DNA of 10,846 nucleotides. Origin: Strigomonas culicis. Taxonomy: Eukaryota; Euglenozoa; Kinetoplastea; Trypanosomatida; Trypanosomatidae. Numbering within the stretch: the first letter of the stretch is position 1; each line of letters starts with the position of its first letter. The stretch is taken from the NCBI GenBank assembly GCA_000482145.1, contig AUXH01000631.1, forward strand, positions 1 through 10,846, read 5' to 3'. Shown one piece after another: positions 1,151 through 10,176 of this stretch. The position numbers and the translations under genes are program-made. The notes beneath the pieces are model-generated. The model searched no databases. It was not told where the DNA came from and was given only the letters and a program-made list of their open reading frames with translations.

Positions 1151-1159
1151 ATTGAACTG

Positions 1160-1268
1160 TATTCTTTCTTTTTTACTCTTTTTTTTTGTTTTTCGTGTTC
1201 TGTATTCTCTTCTTCTATTTCTTTCTTCTCCTCTTTCTCTTCTTTTTTTTTTATCATAACTACAAAAG
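1160..1268 (+). promoter_or_regulatory. Candidate trans-splice acceptor for gene 1 (polypyrimidine tract + AG)
   Basis: Bases about 1160-1253 are almost entirely C/T, with only scattered A and G, and the first AG afterwards is at 1267-1268. In trypanosomatids such tracts direct spliced-leader addition at a nearby downstream AG and also set the poly(A) site of the gene upstream. The tract sits exactly where ATG triplets vanish (last ATG at 1148-1150), which supports the mature mRNA starting about here. If AG 1267-1268 is used, the leader is 958 nt plus the spliced leader. A second, weaker acceptor is the T/C-rich stretch about 1901-1940 with AG at 1944-1945, giving a 281-nt leader. Both are predictions from sequence pattern. 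Confidence 0.5.
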
Positions 1269-2226
1269 GACACGGTATTTATAACATACTTATTATTGTT
1301 CAATAATTATAAATAAGTACTTCTTTAAATTCTACCTATTCTGGTACCTTCCTTTTTTTTTGTTGTTTGCTTTCATCATTGCTTTTTTTTTTTGTTGTGG
1401 TTGCATTTATTTCCATCTTTTAGTTTTTCTTAAAAGAACAAGATCGTAACATATTCTCTCGTACTTACTTGAACTGAAATTCTACTCTAGTTATTATTTC
1501 CTTTTTTTTGCTTTTTGGAATTTTTTTTTTTTGCGTACTTCTCTCCCTCCTTTTTTTTTTGTTCTCTCCTTTTCACCTTCTACCTTTCACTTCTTTTTTC
1601 TAGTTTTTTTTTTTGAATTACATTTCTCCCTTTTTTTTTCCTTCGTTGAAAAGTAATTGAATCAATACGTAAAGAAAAATAGAGAAAAAAGGAAAAAAAA
1701 TATTGAAGATTATCACCGCAACATCCATAAAAGGGTAAACGGAGGCGCTCTTCTTACCACAGCAAATTGTTTTTTTTTTCTCTTTCTTGCGTTTATATTT
1801 CATTACAAACATTTTTTTCCCCTTTTTCTATCAACACACTAATCTATCTATTCAATATATAGAAGGAAAAAAAGAAGGGTATATATTTATATATACATAT
1901 TTCTTTTGTATTGTTATTCTCGTTCTCTTCTTGCCGCTGTTGTAGTAAGTATACGCATACCAACAGGCAAACCGAACTAAGGAAGGAAAAGAGATAACCG
2001 CCAACTACCACCGCAGAAATATATAAACGAATCAGTCAGCATAAGTCACGCCGATATACAAGGAAAAAGAATAAAAAGAATACAAAAGAGGGAGCATACT
2101 TGAGCAACAAGCAAGCCTCAAAGGAAAAGAAAAGAAGAAAAAAAAGAAAGAGAACAGAGAGAGAGAGACAGAAAGAGAGAGAGTGTGTGTAAGAAAAAAA
2201 AACTAAGGAGGAGTTAAGCCTCAACG
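1269..2226 (+). promoter_or_regulatory. Predicted long AUG-free 5' leader of gene 1
   Basis: Reading base by base, no ATG occurs on the + strand from 1151 to 2226, while CAT, the same triplet read from the other strand, occurs about 16 times. The first ATG is that of the 225-aa gene at 2227. The first two thirds are T-rich with a few A-rich patches. The last part (about 1960-2220) is purine-rich and ends in a GA-rich run. Selection against upstream start codons in a scanned leader is the simplest explanation. The exact 5' end depends on which acceptor is used. Confidence 0.6.
2104..2190 (+). repeat. Purine-rich A/G tract with GA repeats just before the gene 1 start
   Basis: This stretch is almost pure A/G and ends in GA dinucleotides followed by a short GT run (about 2182-2190). 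It lies in the predicted 5' leader, ending about 37 nt upstream of the start codon. It lacks pyrimidine tracts, so trans-splicing within it is unlikely, and it may keep the leader unstructured near the start. It is also complementary to the CT-rich run at 29-56, but that run lies outside the predicted mRNA. Confidence 0.7.
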
Positions 2227-2904
2227 ATGAGCCGCTCGCCCAACACGATGGGGACGTACCTGGCTGCAGCGGCGGCGCTCGCAGAGCACCACACAGGAAA
2301 GCACGCAGTGACGCTGCCGGCCGTTATGCAGCGACGAAGCTCCGCGGACGATGACACGGCCGACAACGATGAGGTGACCGCCAACGTGACGAACCGACAC
2401 CGCCAGCCGCAGCCGCAGCCGCAGCCGCAGCCGCACCCACTGGGGGCGGCGGCGCACGGTGTGCACACCCAACGCAGCACCGGAGACAATCATGTTCGCC
2501 GGAACAGCATCAACAGCAACAACAGCAACAACCATCACTGCCACAACCACCACAACGCCCCTACGGCCGCCAACGCGCACTCAAGCAGCCACACCCTGAC
2601 CAGCAACGACTCCAACTGGAGTACCGTGACGCTGTGCTCTCACAACAATCATCACCAGCATTTTCATTCGCACAACAACAACAACAACACCTCCACCAAC
2701 AATCATAATCATCATCACCATAATCAACCGCACCATCTGCATCCGAGTGCGCCGCCGCAGCGACCGACCGATGCGGGGCGGCAGATGCAACGGCTCGGCA
2801 GTTTCTACGTCCCGCCGACCGGCCGCGCTGATCCGCAGCGGAAGAAAGACAGCGAGAGAAGCGTGCGGGCTGCGGAGCTCCTCCTTCTCCTCAAACCGTC
2901 ATAA
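2227..2904 (+). CDS. Asn/His-rich low-complexity protein, 225 aa, C-terminal SVRAA-LL motif (gene 1)
   Basis: I do not recognise a family or domain. The frame is clearly GC-richer than its surroundings, and its ATG at 2227 is the first after 1,076 ATG-free bases, which fixes the start. Residues 11-20 form an Ala-rich stretch; H-A-V-T lies at 26-29 and recurs at the same residues in gene 3. Residues 60-70 are a Gln-Pro repeat, and 93-111 and 139-172 are Asn/His-rich with Asn and His runs. Residues 188-193 (Q-R-L-G-S-F) match a motif in the two other genes. A basic patch at 205-207 precedes the C-terminal motif S-V-R-A-A-E-L-L (212-219), followed by Leu-rich residues and K-P-S. There is no signal peptide or membrane segment, no CCCH zinc finger and no RRM. 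Most of the chain is probably disordered. It is the most diverged family member: R replaces E in the motif and the end is extended. The protein is probably real; its function is unknown. Antisense frames over it are shadows of the repetitive codons. Confidence 0.85.
   Translation: MSRSPNTMGTYLAAAAALAEHHTGKHAVTLPAVMQRRSSADDDTADNDEVTANVTNRHRQPQPQPQPQPHPLGAAAHGVHTQRSTGDNHVRRNSINSNNSNNHHCHNHHNAPTAANAHSSSHTLTSNDSNWSTVTLCSHNNHHQHFHSHNNNNNTSTNNHNHHHHNQPHHLHPSAPPQRPTDAGRQMQRLGSFYVPPTGRADPQRKKDSERSVRAAELLLLLKPS
2404..2436 (+). repeat. Gln-Pro hexanucleotide repeat inside gene 1
   Basis: Five near-perfect copies of a CAG-CCG hexamer encode alternating Gln and Pro (residues 60-69) followed by His. It is a likely slippage-prone, length-polymorphic tract in the disordered part of the protein. 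Confidence 0.9.
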
Positions 2905-5140
2905 AGAATGATATTATTCTTTTTAAAAAAGAAAAAGGAGGTGTAGAGAGAAAAAAAAGAAGTGAATAGAAACAAGGAATAATGAAAAAAAAAACAAGAA
3001 CAAAAATAATAGAGAGAGTAAGTAGATGTATTCATATCTATCTATCTATCCATCTATCTTTATATATACATGAAAGAAGGCATTCAAAAGAATGGGAATG
3101 CGCAACTGCAATTCGTCGTTTTTTTATTTTGGATATGACATTTTTTTCTTTTTTTCTTTTTAGTATACTACCATTATTGTTTTCTCCTTTTCTTTTTGTT
3201 TTCCTTCTCTTATTTTTTTCTTTTTTTCTTGTGGTTTACTGAAATCGTACTTATTGAGGTGTGCATGTTTTTCTACATGCAAACACTTTTTTTTTTTTTT
3301 TAAATACTCTTCTTTTTTTTTTCTCCTTTGAAAAAACAAAAACAAAAACAAAAAAATAATAACAACAAATGCAAAAATAAAGAATACACAACAAGAACAA
3401 CACCAACATGGAAAAAGAAAAGAAATAAAAGAGTATTAGTATTCAAGCTGAAATAAAAGTTACAATGATATTGAAAAGAAGAAGATTATTTATTTCCGTT
3501 TTTTTAATAATGAAAAAAAGAAATAGACACTGAAATAACCTTAAAGGGGAAAGGACACATGTTCATTAAGATCATTTTTTTTGGTCTTCTCTTTTTCCTC
3601 CCCGTTCTTTTTTTTCTTTTTTTTTCTCCGTTGAACTAAACAAATGAACAGCAGCGTTTTGTACAAACCATCATTACTTTCACATTTTTTTTTTAATATA
3701 TAAAAATTACATTCGCTGTATATGGTACCTACAAGAGCACCCTCCTCTATATAACCTTCGAATTTATATATATATATATATATACATAATACATAAATAA
3801 ATAAATCTATATATCTACCTATCTATATCAGTATTTGTATTGTAATAATTTTTTTAATTATTTCCACATCTTCTATATAAACATACATAACATACATATA
3901 TATATATACATTGCCGTCATGTACATATATGCTCATTGATCATTATAATAATATCATTTTTTTTTCACTTCCATTCCTTTTTTCTTTTGCTGGTTTTGCG
4001 TCTCATCTTCGCACAAAAAACAAACAAACAAAACAAACGTTATATGGATAAGGATAATAATAGTGTTAATGAATTAAATATTGTTAACTGTTTTCTGTAT
4101 TATTATTATTGTTATTATTATTTACCATTTTTTCATTCTTCTTATTCTTCTTAAAATAGAAGAACTGAAAAAAGAATTAATATCTTTAGTTTTATTTTTC
4201 ATCAAAACAAAACTCCACAGAACAAATACATGAACAAAAGTGTTTAATCCCTCCCAAAAAAGAAACATGCATAAAAAAGTAAATCAATAGAAAAGCAGAA
4301 GTCTAAAGGAGAAGAAAAGTGCACCTGTATAGTAAAAATACATGCAAGATAGAGAGAAAAGTACACTTTTTTTTCTCTTTGTGTTATTATTCTTTCTTAA
4401 TCCCACAATTTCATTTTGATTTTTTTTTAAAGTTCTTTTTTCTCAATTGTATTCCCTTTTTTCCTTTCTCTTTCCTTTTGCGTTTCTCTAATTATGATTA
4501 TTATTATTTATTATTATTATTATTGTTAATAGTTTACGAGTTCCTTTTTTTTCTCTTTCTGCACTTTTTTTTTGAATTAACATGATGACTGGAGAAGAAG
4601 GAGAGTATATTGGTGCGTACACCATCATTATATGTGCAATGTTGCAGGAATAGTACAGAGACTAATAATCAGAAAAAAGAAGAAGAGAATAAAACAAACG
4701 AAAAAAAAAGATGTATAATTTGATAAATCATGATAAAAGAGCATTATTTCGTGTGTATGCGTGTGTGTGGGAGGTATATATATATATATTTTGAAATCAG
4801 GCAAGAGGAAGAAAAAGGAGAAAACAGAAGTAATTAAAGGAAATCTGCATTTCTTTTTTTTCTTCCTTTTTTTTATGTATTCATTTTTTTTCTGTTCCTC
4901 TTTTTTTTGTGCTTTTTTTTTGGGTGTCCTTTTGCCTCATCTTAATAATAATAATAACAACAAAGTATAATTGTGTTTTTAGAACTTTTTTGTCTTCCGC
5001 TTTGGCGATGTCTGAGAAGAAAAAACAACAACCGGATATGATGTTGCTTCTGCTCTGTGGCAATCTGTTTTTTTTTCTCTTTAGGTTTTCTGTGATTCAT
5101 ACGCATCATTATGCGTTTGTGTTTGCTATGCTTGATGAGA
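2905..5140 (+). other. 3' UTR of gene 1 and intergenic region; no gene seen
   Basis: No coding region is supported here. Frames are T-, A- or ATT-driven low complexity without a GC rise, and ATG triplets are plentiful. Contents include an A/C-rich block at about 3336-3420, ATT/TAT-rich blocks at about 4100-4125 and 4495-4525, an AT run at 3765-3784, and ATCT/TATC repeats around 3037-3060 and 3808-3830. The frame at 4909-5295 contains a few ordinary-looking residues around 4990-5060 but is dominated by homopolymer translation. Poly(A) addition for gene 1 would be expected some 100-500 nt upstream of the acceptor at 5183, giving a 3' UTR of roughly 2 kb. Confidence 0.6.
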
Positions 5141-5146
5141 CAACAT

Positions 5147-5183
5147 TTTTTTCTTTACTCCTTCTTCTTCTTCCCTCTCTAAG
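5147..5183 (+). promoter_or_regulatory. Candidate trans-splice acceptor for gene 2 (polypyrimidine tract + AG)
   Basis: Bases about 5147-5180 are T/C with a single A (T-rich, then TTC repeats, then a CT run), and the first AG follows immediately at 5182-5183. This is a textbook trypanosomatid acceptor. It lies 45 nt after the last ATG (5135-5137) before a 1,426-nt ATG-free stretch, which supports its use. The predicted leader is 1,380 nt. It would also define the poly(A) site of gene 1. This is inferred from pattern only. Confidence 0.55.
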
Positions 5184-6563
5184 ATATCCTTTTTTGATAA
5201 GCCCATCTTTAAAGAAATTACTACTATTACTTGTTTTTTTTTACCCCTTTTTTTCTCACTTTTTTTTTTTTAAAGAAACAAGAAGAAAATCTTGAAACAC
5301 GTGACCGAAAAGCTGACGGCAACCATAAAAAGAAAAAATAAAGAATTCAAAAGAATATATATTTCTAATTATAAAATCGATATACTCTTTTTTTTTCTTT
5401 TTGATTCGCTTTATAATTTTTTTCCAGTTCTCTCTCTCTCTATATTTATATACAGAGCACATTTTCTTTTATTGATCTCTCCATCGATTTTTTTCTTCTT
5501 TTTTTTTCATATATATATATATACATATATACAGTATCTATATCTAAGGGTTTTCTTTCTTATTCGTTCATTATATATATATATATATATACACATTTTT
5601 TGTTTGCTTTTATACTTTTTTGTATATATCATTTTTTTTTGAGATTTTATACGCTTCTTTTTTTCTTCTTTTCTTTGTGTTTCCATTATCAGGACTCACT
5701 TGCAGATCATTCGAAAAAAGAAACTTAAAAGTATTATATCAAAAAAAAAACCCTTTTAGGAAAAGTAAAAACAAAAGCAAACGAATATACTTAGCGGTTT
5801 ATATTTAACGAGCCCCCCCCTCCTGTTCCGTGAACCGTTTGTTAAAGTTTTTTTTTGAATAAAACTTCTTTTTTTTTCTGAATCGTTCGTTTTTTTCTCC
5901 TTTTTTCTCTTCCTTTCAGCGATAATTATTACTGTATATCTTCTATTGTTGTTTGGAAAAGAAAAAAAAGAGAAGTATATTAATATACCGATTTTGTTTT
6001 TGCTATCTTGCTTTTTTATTTATTATTTTTTAATTTTGAACTCAAGTCTTTACTGTTCTTATAATTATCCTTACGTTCCCTTTCCTTAATAAAGAACGTC
6101 ATCGACAGGTGATTAAAGAAGACACTAACAAGAAAAGAACAAGAAAGCACTGTTAAAAAAAAAGAGCATTACGTAGATAGTAGCAATAATAATAATAATC
6201 CCCCAAAAGAGATTTATATTTCATTGTTTTTTGTTTTATTATTATTGTTATCATCTTTATTAGTATTGTTGTGTTTTCATTCCGTCTATACCTTTATTAT
6301 TATTATAAATTCACTTGCTTATTCGATTTTTGTTTCTCTTTTTTTTTTTGCATTCGGAAGAAAAAAAAGCAACAACACAACACCAACATAGTATAAAAAG
6401 GTACAGATTCTGTTTTTCCAAAAAGAAAAGAGAAAAAAAAGATAAAACAGGATATTATCAGAAACACTTTTGGACATCCGCTTTTTTTTTACATATATAT
6501 ATATATACATATCTATATATTATAAATACATTTTTTTTCTTTTTTCTTTTTGTCTTGTTTACC
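5184..6563 (+). promoter_or_regulatory. Predicted very long AUG-free 5' leader of gene 2
   Basis: No ATG occurs on the + strand from 5138 to 6563, while about 23 CAT triplets do. Apparent open frames here (from about 5292, 5620 and 6315) begin only at TTG and are T-rich low complexity, so I do not call them genes. The region alternates T-rich and A-rich blocks. It contains AT runs (5509-5524, 5572-5591), a C8 run at 5813-5820, ATT/AAT repeats (about 6185-6199, 6236-6247), and several internal pyrimidine tracts that could act as alternative acceptors. It is the longest ATG-free stretch in the window. Confidence 0.6.
6326..6360 (+). promoter_or_regulatory. Alternative trans-splice acceptor candidate for gene 2
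   Basis: A T/C-rich tract at about 6326-6349 is followed by the first AG at 6359-6360. Its use would give a 203-nt leader, which is an ordinary trypanosomatid length. It competes with the upstream acceptor at 5183 and the two need not be exclusive. Sequence alone cannot say which dominates. Confidence 0.45.
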
Positions 6564-6878
6564 ATGGGCAGTGAGAATAAATCTAAAGTCCCCTTGACGG
6601 AACTCGTACATACCACTACTACCACTATTGCTACCAATAATAATAACATGAATATGTACTCTCCCAACAAGAAGAGAATGTGTCGGATGGAGTGCTATGT
6701 CGAGGGCTTGAATTATTACGGGGATGCGACAGCTGTCAATCGCGACAGCACTGCGCCTCTTCCTTCTCCCCCCACGACCACTACGGCTTATCAGAACGTA
6801 TACACATATGAGGATCGTTATCTACAAAGCGATCGATCGGTGGAGGCCGCCTCGAAGCTCTTGGCTATGACAGAGTAA
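6564..6878 (+). CDS. Small Thr/Asn-rich protein, 104 aa, C-terminal SVEAASKLLAM motif (gene 2)
   Basis: I do not recognise a family. The ATG at 6564 is in a good context (ACC before, G after) and is the first after 1,426 ATG-free bases. The frame is open back to 6315, but only from a TTG and through homopolymer sequence, so I reject the longer version. Thr and Asn runs occupy residues 17-28. K-K-R at 36-38 is followed by C-R-M-E-C-Y (40-45), which aligns with motifs in genes 1 and 3. A Pro/Thr-rich linker (63-74) and a Tyr-containing segment (76-86) lead to R-S-V-E-A-A-S-K-L-L-A-M-T-E (91-104) at the very C terminus, nearly the same as the end of gene 3. The motif looks like an amphipathic helix (V93, A96, L99, L100). 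No signal peptide, membrane span or catalytic domain is visible. The third codon positions look less GC-biased than in genes 1 and 3. It is probably a real member of the three-gene family; function unknown. Confidence 0.83.
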   Translation: MGSENKSKVPLTELVHTTTTTIATNNNNMNMYSPNKKRMCRMECYVEGLNYYGDATAVNRDSTAPLPSPPTTTTAYQNVYTYEDRYLQSDRSVEAASKLLAMTE

Positions 6879-9016
6879 ATGCATAAAACAAATAGATAAG
6901 AAGATAATATATATATATATACTATTTCTTCTCTTTTATAATAAACACTGTTTGCATAAAAACAGTTTTTTTTCTTTGAAAGAAGAAAAAACAGAAAAGG
7001 AATATGTAACCCGTCGAATTTTTTTTTGCGCTATTTTACTTATTGCACTGCTTTTTCTTATCTTTTTTTGTCTATTTCCGATGTAATAAAAAAAGGGAAG
7101 TAAATACATAAAACAAATTAGTTATCATCATAATAAGTACAATGCAATGATGTCAAATCTATCTGTTACAGTGAATACACTGACACACCAACACACAGTA
7201 TAAAAAGGAAGTTTTAAAACACAACTATAACCATACTTATGATTTATCAGATATATATATATATATACACACACGTTTATATGTATATGTATATATGTAT
7301 ATACGTTTTTGTATATGATAGCTCATGGTCCGAAGAAAAACAAAAAGTATTATTTTTAATTAATATATTTGATATTTGTTTTTCTCATATCAACAACAAC
7401 AACAACAAACCAGTTATACAGAGAGAAGAAATGAGAGGATTTTTGTTTTCTTTCTCTTCTTTTTTTCCCTTTTCCGCCTTCGAATACGCTTTTTTTTGCT
7501 TCCTTTAATAGAGATCTATACCCCATGACATACATAAAAAAGAAAGGAACATATGTTATATATTCAAAAAGAAAAAGATAACATCTTTTTTTTTTGCTCA
7601 CGCAATTGATCTGTAAACAAATACTCAATATGCTTTTACGAAGGACTTATATCTATAACTTTTTTTCATATACTTTTCACCTTTTTGTTTGTTTCTCTAC
7701 CGTTCGTTAGTTTTTTTTTAAATGAAAGTAATTTTTCTCTAAAACAAAAAGATAAAAAAAGGCCTTCTTTTTTTTTGCTTTACTTGTTTTCTTTGAGTGC
7801 AATTCTCAAGAGTGAACTCTTATTTTTTATTCTGTCTCTTCATCTTGTTTTTTTGATTCTGTTTTTCTTCCTCTTTTCCTTGTTAATACTCTAGTTTACT
7901 ATTTTATTTTACATGAATATCTACTGGAGTATTAATAAGAATTCCAAAAAAAAAGGAGAAATAAACGAAGAACAAATCATAATAATAATAAAAAAAATTG
8001 CAATGGTAATACCATTTTTTGCTTTTTTTTTTAAGTGTATGTATACGTATTCATACACACCATACAGATATATATATATATATATTTATTTACGCTCTTT
8101 TGTTTTCAAATACCTATAAACAGTTCTTTTTTCTGGTTTATTTATTACTTTTTTTTTGTTCCTCTTTCAGAGTGAATCACATTTTCTTTTTTTCTTTTCC
8201 GTTTTTTATTTTTGTCTTTGAATGACATTTCTCTCCTGTTGCCATATGGTACTGACATTGCAGCAATTAAACAGAAAAAAAAATAAAAGGAACGTGCAAG
8301 CGAAACATAATACTTCAAAAAACGATAAAAGCGATGAATAAAAAAAGATAAGAAAAAGGAAAATTCACTTCCCATAACTTTTTTTTGTTTTCCCTTTTTT
8401 TCCCGCTTCTCTTCTTTCTCTGTTTGGAAAGGATTAGCGAAGTGCAGAGTGTGAATCGAAAAAAAAAGAAAAACAAGAAAAAAAGTAAAAGGAGGAAGAA
8501 GAAGCAGAACACATATACACCATATTATAAATTGTTTTATGTATGCTGCTACTTTTCACAAACTATACACACTTTTTTTAAATTTATATATATGTTTTTT
8601 TATCATCGTTTTCTTTTTCCTCTTCTTGTTGTGATTCTAGAGAAAAAGGAAGAAGGAATAAACAATAAAAGAAAAACGCTGATAACAAACCAGAATCTGA
8701 CAATTTTTTTTTTGCCTTTCTTCGGTCAAATATGCACGTAAACAAAAATGTGTGAATGCCCCCCTTTTTTTCTCTTCTTTCATTTATTCTGTTTCTTAGA
8801 TCCGTGCTGATATGTGTTTACCTCACTATGTATACAATTATTTTATTTCTCTCTCCCTCTTTCTCTCTCTCTCTTGCTCCTTCCTTTCCTTTTACTTTTT
8901 TTTTACGATAAGGTCTTTTTGGTGATTATTGTATTCTTCTGTTCTGCATCCCCTCATTTTTTTTTTGTAGCCCTCTTATATAAATATATATACTTGCTTT
9001 GCAAAACTCTTTTATG
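6879..9016 (+). other. 3' UTR of gene 2 and intergenic region; no gene seen
   Basis: No coding region is supported. The frames are T-rich or A-rich homopolymer translations. About 32 ATG triplets occur in these 2,138 nt by hand count, so it does not behave like a leader. It holds AT runs at 7251-7267 and 8068-8085, a CAA run near 7391-7407, alternating TATG/TATA sequence around 7278-7305, and many T8-T10 homopolymers. The distance from stop codon to next predicted acceptor (2,187 nt) is close to that after gene 1 (2,279 nt). Confidence 0.6.
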
Positions 9017-9065
9017 TTTTGTTTTTGTTTTATTTCTTCCCATTGTTTCCGTTGTAAAATTCAAG
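9017..9065 (+). promoter_or_regulatory. Candidate trans-splice acceptor for gene 3 (polypyrimidine tract + AG)
   Basis: A T-rich, C-containing stretch at about 9017-9054 is followed by the first AG at 9064-9065. It starts directly after the last ATG (9014-9016) before the 740-nt ATG-free region. The tract has more G and A interruptions than those of genes 1 and 2, so it is a weaker call. Use of this AG would give a 691-nt leader. Confidence 0.45.
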
Positions 9066-9524
9066 GGCAACTGAAGCATTCTTACCCACGCAAAGGAAAA
9101 TAATAATAATAATAACAATAATATTAAAAAAACATAAAAACAAAAACAAACAAACAAACAAACCAACAAAAGAAAAACCTGCGAAAAAGAAAAAAAATAG
9201 TTTTCATCTTTAACTTGAAGCTAAAAAAGAAGAATAAAAAGAGAAAATAAAACTAAACCAATAAAAAAACTGACGAAGTATAGTAAACAAAAAAGAAAAA
9301 GAAATTAAAACACCGAAACAGATAAACAGAGGCTTTTCTTGTTTTTCTTCTTTATTACTTATTTTTCTTTCTTTTTTCTTTTTGTTACTCATTTTGTATA
9401 GAGTTTAAACCTTTTACCTATATATATTCACATACATATATATCTATCCTTGTTTATTTCTATATACACAACTACTCATTAATATATATTATTCCCACTT
9501 GTTGTTTTATTCTATTACAGCTGC

Positions 9525-9547
9525 AATAATAATAATAATAATAATAA
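9525..9547 (+). repeat. (AAT)n trinucleotide microsatellite in the gene 3 leader
   Basis: Seven or more AAT units in a row follow a small T/C-rich acceptor-like site ending in CAG (9518-9520). A second imperfect AAT/AAC array lies at 9098-9123. Both add A/T-rich, ATG-free sequence to the leader and are likely to vary in length. Confidence 0.85.
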
Positions 9548-9648
9548 AGGAAAACGTGAATAACTACATAGCACTCAATAGTAAAAAAGAATACATATAT
9601 TTTTGCTGACTTATAACAATACGCAAAAAAAAAAGGAAACAGACACAC

Positions 9649-9674
9649 TTTTTTCCCCCTTCTTCTCTTTCTAG
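9649..9674 (+). promoter_or_regulatory. Proximal trans-splice acceptor candidate for gene 3
   Basis: A nearly pure T/C tract at about 9649-9672 is followed at once by AG at 9673-9674. By pattern it is a better acceptor than the distal one at 9065 and would give a leader of only 82 nt. Another candidate is the tract 9332-9399 with AG at 9400-9401. The ATG-free zone reaches well upstream of this site, so longer isoforms are probably also made. Confidence 0.5.
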
Positions 9675-9756
9675 AAGAAGAAGAAAGAAAAGAGAGAAGA
9701 CTGAAAAACAAACAAACACAAAAAAGACAAGTATCCTATACAAAAACTCCGGGGCG

Positions 9757-10025
9757 ATGGATTTTAGCACCATTTCCACAGACACTAATTGTACGTATGG
9801 CGAACCGAACTCGACGAATCAAAGTGCGCATCACGCAGTGACGGCTGCAACGCGTGCTGCTGCTGCGGTGAAGCACCAAACGTTGTGCTTACAGGAGACC
9901 GCGTTCTTCGTCTCATCCACCTCCTCTAACGGTAGCAGCCCGAACCACATTAATCGCTTCTCCACCGCTCACGCGCCAGCGCCGGCGCGGCTGCCACCGC
10001 CGCCGCGGTGTGCAGACCTGAACAC

Positions 10026-10056
<31 letters not shown>

Positions 10057-10176
10057 CAGCGGATGAGTATCTTCAATGATGGTGGCGCGGATGCCTGCAA
10101 CGCGGTGGAGCGACGCAACAAGAAGAGTGCGCAAGCGGTGGAGGCGGCGCAGAGACTGCTGGCGATGGTCGAATAG
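9757..10176 (+). CDS. Gln-tract low-complexity protein, 139 aa, C-terminal AVEAAQRLLAMVE motif (gene 3)
   Basis: I do not recognise a family. The ATG at 9757 (purine at -3, G at +4) is the first after 740 ATG-free bases, and the frame is GC-rich compared with its flanks. Residues 1-24 are Ser/Thr/Asn-rich. H-A-V-T lies at 26-29, the same position and the same 12 bases as in gene 1, followed by an Ala-rich stretch (30-38). Residues 52-61 are Ser-rich, and 72-83 are Ala/Pro then Pro-rich. Nine Gln codons (91-99, all CAG) lead into Q-R-M-S-I-F (101-106), which matches motif A of the other genes. A basic patch (118-123) precedes A-V-E-A-A-Q-R-L-L-A-M-V-E (127-139) at the extreme C terminus. TAG is followed directly in frame by TAA, a tandem stop that guards the C-terminal motif against readthrough. 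No signal peptide, membrane span or known domain is visible. It is likely disordered apart from the C-terminal helix. Antisense frames here are shadows. Confidence 0.87.
10027..10053 (+). repeat. (CAG)9 trinucleotide tract encoding polyGln in gene 3
   Basis: Nine pure CAG codons give nine Gln, followed by CGG-CAG-CGG (Arg-Gln-Arg). The lack of synonymous CAA interruptions suggests recent slippage expansion, so the length is likely to vary between alleles. It lies immediately before motif A. Confidence 0.92.

Follow-up and report, generated by a model that had tools for sequence, protein, structure and literature searches.

The window analyzed here is the complete contig AUXH01000631.1 of the Strigomonas culicis assembly GCA_000482145.1, 10,846 nucleotides (nt) in length. 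It is an AT-rich island of very low gene density, with three small predicted genes in 10.8 kb, and its G+C content is 0.315 compared to 0.552 in a 200-kb sample of the genome. All three genes lie on the + strand, and each is immediately preceded by a long stretch that lacks the triplet ATG, which we refer to as an ATG desert (Table 1). Gene arrays in the genome sample mostly run on a single strand, and KMP-11, a kinetoplastid-specific protein, is encoded in four tandem copies (C184:26990-30237, - strand) and found in 0 of 14 control genomes; together, these two properties mark the genome as trypanosomatid.

Table 1. Genes, ATG deserts, candidate splice acceptors and internal control segments in the window
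Feature	Position	Strand	Evidence
Desert before gene 1, its predicted 5' leader (1,076 nt), with the first acceptor-like AG at 1267-1268	1151-2226	+	
Gene 1, 225 codons, His/Asn/Gln-rich, C-terminal RSVRAAELLLLLKPS	2227-2904	+	
Gene 1 3' UTR / intergenic, internal control	2905-5137	+	38 ATG seen, 34.9 expected
Desert before gene 2, its predicted 5' leader; splicing at 5182-5183 would give a leader of at most about 1,380 nt	5138-6563	+	0 ATG, 23 CAT; 9 to 22 ATG expected
First polypyrimidine tract and AG in the desert, candidate spliced-leader acceptor, one of 12 there	5146-5183	+	rough site score
Later alternative acceptor with tract at 6274-6349 and AG at 6359-6360, which would leave a leader of 203 nt	6274-6360	+	rough site score
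Gene 2, 104 codons, C-terminal DRSVEAASKLLAMTE, start context ACCATGG	6564-6878	+	
Gene 2 3' UTR / intergenic, internal control	6879-9016	+	32 ATG seen, 27.6 expected
Desert before gene 3, its predicted 5' leader (740 nt), with the first acceptor-like AG at 9064-9065	9017-9756	+	
Gene 3, 139 codons, C-terminal AQAVEAAQRLLAMVE	9757-10176	+	

The last 21 residues of the three predicted proteins align with pairwise scores of 33, 32 and 45, whereas 15 is the 99th percentile for 2926 pairs of C-termini taken from the genome sample; the respective scores are reached by 6, 6 and 5 of these pairs, some of which are perhaps real paralogues. The core common to all three is V-x-A-A-x-x-L-L near the C-terminus, and despite this common motif the N-terminal parts are little alike. 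Judged from their sequences, the three proteins look like diverged tandem paralogues, possibly of an uncharacterised family. In Pfam, none of the three proteins reaches the cut-off of a family, including the RRM and CCCH domains that RNA-binding-protein regulators would carry, and a protein database search with genes 2 and 3 gives no match at E<=10. A search within the same genome returns nothing but the query for gene 2, and the query plus four weak matches (E from 0.02 to 0.5) for gene 3. The pattern VEAAxxLLA has 4 matches, two of which are genes 2 and 3, and its backward control has 5; since the control is as frequent as the pattern, we claim no further family member. Codon-usage scores are 0.256 for gene 1, 0.135 for gene 2 and 0.214 for gene 3, and the predicted coding status of gene 2 is deduced from its C-terminal motif, from the context of its ATG and from the desert in front of it.

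The stretch upstream of gene 2 had been singled out in the initial annotation as a 1,426-nt interval devoid of ATG, with about 23 copies of CAT, in front of only 104 codons, and this description is exact. Direct counting gives 0 ATG and 23 CAT on the + strand of 5138-6563, and the flanking ATGs are located at 5135-5137 and 6564-6566, the latter being the start codon of gene 2 (CDS 6564-6878). At the rate found in the non-leader, non-coding part of the window (96 ATG in 6183 positions), 22.1 copies of ATG would be expected in the desert and the probability of finding none is ~2.5e-10. The dinucleotide composition of the desert itself leads to an expectation of 10.4 (probability of zero 2.9e-5), and calculation in 100-nt blocks leads to 9.0 from dinucleotides and 17.3 from single bases. 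The dinucleotide-based expectations are conservative because AT and TG themselves become rarer when ATG is lost. In simulated sequences (3 x 300, 9.5 kb each, Markov orders 1 to 3), the longest distance from one ATG start to the next is 727, and the longest run in the window without CAT, which is equivalent to an ATG-free run on the - strand, is 393. When the whole window is considered, some other triplets have gaps longer than those of ATG, namely CGG (2160), GGG (1970), GGC (1721), CCG (1715) and GTC (1501); these triplets mostly contain G and C and are rare in the AT-rich window, yet TTG, with 188 copies, also has one gap of 1029. The case therefore rests on strand contrast, fixed end points and three-fold repetition, and not on length alone.

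The three longest ATG-free runs on the + strand of the window measure 1426 (5138-6563), 1076 (1151-2226) and 740 nt (9017-9756), followed by a fourth of 276 nt, and each of the first three stops exactly at a gene start (6564, 2227 and 9757, respectively). When the three leaders are pooled, ATG has the lowest observed/expected ratio of all 64 triplets (0 versus 22.5), and the ratios for CTG (1.07), GTG (1.30) and TTG (1.38) are at or above expectation. Outside the leaders, the counts of ATG are those given in Table 1 for the two internal controls and, in the other segments, 19 versus 16.3 expected and 7 versus 6.1 expected. The depletion affects the sense strand without affecting the reverse complement, and it stops at the start of the coding sequence and is missing from the 3' regions; both properties characterize a 5' UTR purged of AUG. 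The long ATG-free stretch is a property of the whole three-gene cluster and not of gene 2 alone. A chance origin of the desert is unlikely, and chance or base composition was rejected as its cause by the expected counts, the simulations, the ranking of triplets and the control segments.

The upstream regions of other genes in the same genome were surveyed in 20 stretches of 10 kb (200 kb in total) from 13 contigs, which were chosen and are not a random draw; the DNA examined amounts to less than 2% of the assembly (17.7 Mb, 670 contigs). A gene finder based on codon usage and trained on the same DNA predicted 77 genes of at least 100 codons, and the ATG-free runs upstream of them have a median of 114 and a maximum of 388 nt (6 of the 77 runs are cut by the end of the stretch and were kept). 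For the 56 of these genes that have a defined upstream intergenic stretch of at least 60 nt, the ATG/CAT ratio is 0.19 in the first 50 nt upstream, 0.32 between 50 and 100 nt, and 0.74 to 1.05 thereafter. The purge thus fades past about 100 nt, which marks the usual short 5' UTR and places the genes in the window far outside the usual range. The runs of 1426 and 1076 nt are the longest seen before any predicted gene in the DNA examined. Gene 2 itself scores below the survey threshold of 0.15, so that the survey would miss it and may have missed other genes with long leaders.

The runs in the window appear to be the extreme end of a class and not an isolated case. On the - strand of C83:2701-10000, where small single-RRM genes are arranged in tandem, one small RRM gene has an ATG-free upstream run of 762 nt with 18 CAT, and the runs of the other four RRM genes measured are 391, 215, 95 and 81 nt. 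On the - strand of C452:1-8000, three related genes have runs of 656, 407 and 358 nt; their products start with MGN, which we take to be a possible site of N-myristoylation. A tract pattern, TTATTATT, occurs at 8 loci and led to the stretches of C452 and C182; in the latter, no complete ATG-free run before the listed frames exceeds 109 nt, and one of 417 nt is cut by the end of the stretch. Among other sampled products, for one protein the PDB chains 'T-lymphocyte triggering factor, putative' and 'Trypanin' are better matches than the listed DRC4 chains, and a 111-aa frame has no PDB match.

We propose that the mRNA of gene 2 carries the desert as its 5' untranslated leader, that this leader is scanned linearly and that selection keeps it free of AUG; we consider this explanation probable. 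Kinetoplastid mRNAs carry a capped spliced leader. A polycistronic transcript would be trans-spliced near the left edge of the desert, with 5182-5183 as the first candidate site, and the mRNA would begin with a capped leader about 1.1 to 1.4 kb long. Initiation complexes would then scan this leader from end to end and, because any upstream AUG would divert them, selection may have removed every one. Genes 1 and 3 would be handled in the same way and would form with gene 2 a tandem set of small, diverged and probably low-dose proteins. The spliced-leader pattern that we used, searched without mismatches, has 0 matches in the genome, so the spliced-leader step draws on general kinetoplastid biology. 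The proposal of a long leader, already made in the initial annotation, gains from the fact that the purge is one-stranded, ends at the start codon and recurs at two neighbours, and that ordinary genes are purged over only about the first 100 nt.

The position of the 5' end is a more delicate matter. The acceptor named earlier (tract 5147-5180, AG 5182-5183) exists, our own scoring placing the tract at 5146-5180, but it is not distinctive. The same rough acceptor score is passed by 24 sites in 2905-6563, of which 12 are within the desert, and with acceptor-like sites this dense, finding one 45 nt inside the desert edge is unremarkable. From the left edge of the desert, which is soft, the 5' end would be placed near 5183. 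Over the first 290 nt, 4.5 ATGs would be expected at the background rate and 1.1 from the dinucleotides of the sequence itself; their absence there is only weakly informative, so the true 5' end could be located a few hundred nt further in, and the density of acceptor-like sites throughout the region implies that it may vary.

The same density lends itself to a different reading, in which the main mRNA starts late, for example at AG 6359-6360, which is among the sites that pass the score, and the desert upstream is due to chance, composition or purging for the benefit of minor long isoforms. A leader of 203 nt would be in keeping with the median 5' UTR of 242 nt given for L. mexicana in the available portion of PMC4599935. 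However, a late start alone leaves 1,223 ATG-free nt unexplained, where 19 ATGs are expected (9 conservatively), the probability that 5138-6360 is free of ATG by chance is about 6e-9 (1e-4 in the conservative model), and a similar coincidence would be needed for genes 1 and 3. Selection on minor isoforms alone is presumably not strong enough to remove every ATG. We therefore regard the late start as unlikely.

Two further alternatives concern the nature of the stretch itself. Translation could begin upstream at a non-AUG codon, which would make part of the desert an N-terminal extension of gene 2, and the gene-2 frame is indeed open for 85 codons upstream of its ATG. However, longer stop-free runs (86 to 122 codons) are found elsewhere in the gene 2 leader, gene 1 is open for only 3 codons upstream, and the gene-2 ATG is in the context ACCATGG. 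The extension was rejected on the comparison of stop-free runs, and we consider it very improbable. The least probable of the explanations considered is that the stretch holds an internal ribosome entry site or encodes a non-coding RNA of its own, for which its length speaks: neither would lead one to expect that ATG disappears from a single strand as far as the start codon, all 16 Rfam matches found in the window (E<=1) are below the gathering score, and no tRNA was found. Full-length scanning would call for a purge over the whole 1.4 kb, whereas neither an internal entry site nor a separate RNA would need one.

According to the accessible part of a review (PMC6597758), the kinetoplastid 48S complex scans to the start codon and most 5' UTRs are shorter than 100 nt and rarely exceed 250 nt. 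In a survey of selection against upstream AUG in eukaryotes (PMC7889888, as far as its text is available), AUG has the lowest 5'-over-3'-UTR ratio of the triplets. The leaders described here resemble that result in that no triplet is more depleted than ATG, but differ in that they lack it entirely over 740 to 1,426 nt; neither 'kinetoplast' nor 'Leishmania' appears in the main text of PMC7889888. Leaders of kilobase length have been reported in T. brucei, where trans-spliced mRNAs with a 5' UTR longer than 2 kb were counted for 198, 191 and 153 genes in three stages (PMC2916883, available portion). In T. congolense, the length of the 5' UTR correlates with the number of uORFs (r = 0.88; PMC6084854, in part); longer leaders carry more uORFs there, so that a ~1.4-kb leader without AUG is unusual, and three in a row are more so. 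Trypanosome mRNAs repressed by uORFs, as described in the accessible sections of PMC7059621 and PMC3973304, follow the same scanning logic, and AUG is the main start codon of the repressive uORFs in T. cruzi, but the design here would be the opposite, with zero upstream AUGs. Control of gene 2 by a uORF was discarded, as it needs at least one upstream AUG and the leader has none. The regulators ZC3H20, 21 and 22, as presented in the available part of PMC6597758, also combine very long untranslated regions with one set of genes; in that case, however, the oversized part is the 3' UTR, and the proteins described here have neither RRM nor CCCH according to Pfam. AUG depletion and long leaders are thus already known, and it is the length that is extreme here. 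In the open-licence literature, a kilobase AUG-free leader is named in no title or beginning of an abstract among the matches listed.

If the full leader is used, ribosomes would scan well over a kilobase in a group of organisms with mostly short leaders, and three paralogues that differ in leader length would make it possible to test, on natural genes, how processive scanning is and what determines the choice of an acceptor among many similar tracts. The calibration on 56 predicted genes suggests that ATG-free runs may reveal the length of the 5' UTR directly from a trypanosomatid genome.

The initial annotation went further and suggested that the leader itself carries regulation, for example through protein binding or a length-dependent limit on translation; the small protein so limited would be a dosage-critical one. 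Such a function would add to the explanation that we prefer, and we consider it possible but doubtful. Long deserts are present in all three genes of the cluster, and one of the five RRM genes measured has the 762-nt run. The consulted part of the review PMC6597758 states that 5' UTRs longer than 200 nt lowered the expression of a reporter in T. brucei and that unusually long 3' UTRs are found in the mRNAs of many RNA-binding proteins and protein kinases. However, the available text of PMC7059621 reports no genome-wide correlation between 5' UTR length and translation efficiency in T. cruzi, and the removal of AUG, which keeps translation going, would point away from strong repression. That leader length itself lowers protein output is more speculative. 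More specifically, AUG-free, weakly folded leaders of about 0.7, 1.0 and 1.4 kb might set the output of the three paralogues through loss of scanning complexes, the proteins being dosage-critical; this version appears quite unlikely.

The leaders were also compared for sequence elements, and here the regulatory reading is unsupported. No complex 11-mer is common to any two leaders and no complex 8-mer to all three, and a folding scan of all three leaders and of two 3' regions shows the leaders to be folded no more strongly than the adjacent 3' regions. CATAGAA, which we take to represent the Crithidia-type octamer, has no match on the + strand of the window, and a looser form with A or C in the first position has 4 (638, 2965, 4155 and 4286), none of which is in a leader. 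Poly-purine tracts in 3' UTRs are linked to translation in T. brucei in the accessible part of PMC11405848. Purine runs of at least 12 nt account for 131 nt per kb in the gene 1 leader, 132 in the gene 3 leader, 57.5 in the gene 2 leader, and 82 and 70 in the 3' regions; since the gene 2 leader is not rich in such runs, they explain nothing about the desert. Purine runs are located just upstream of gene 1, at 1979-2202. The most unusual folding window, 4765-4884 (z -6.4 with 25 shuffles, MFE -32.6), belongs to the 3' region of gene 1 and not to a leader.
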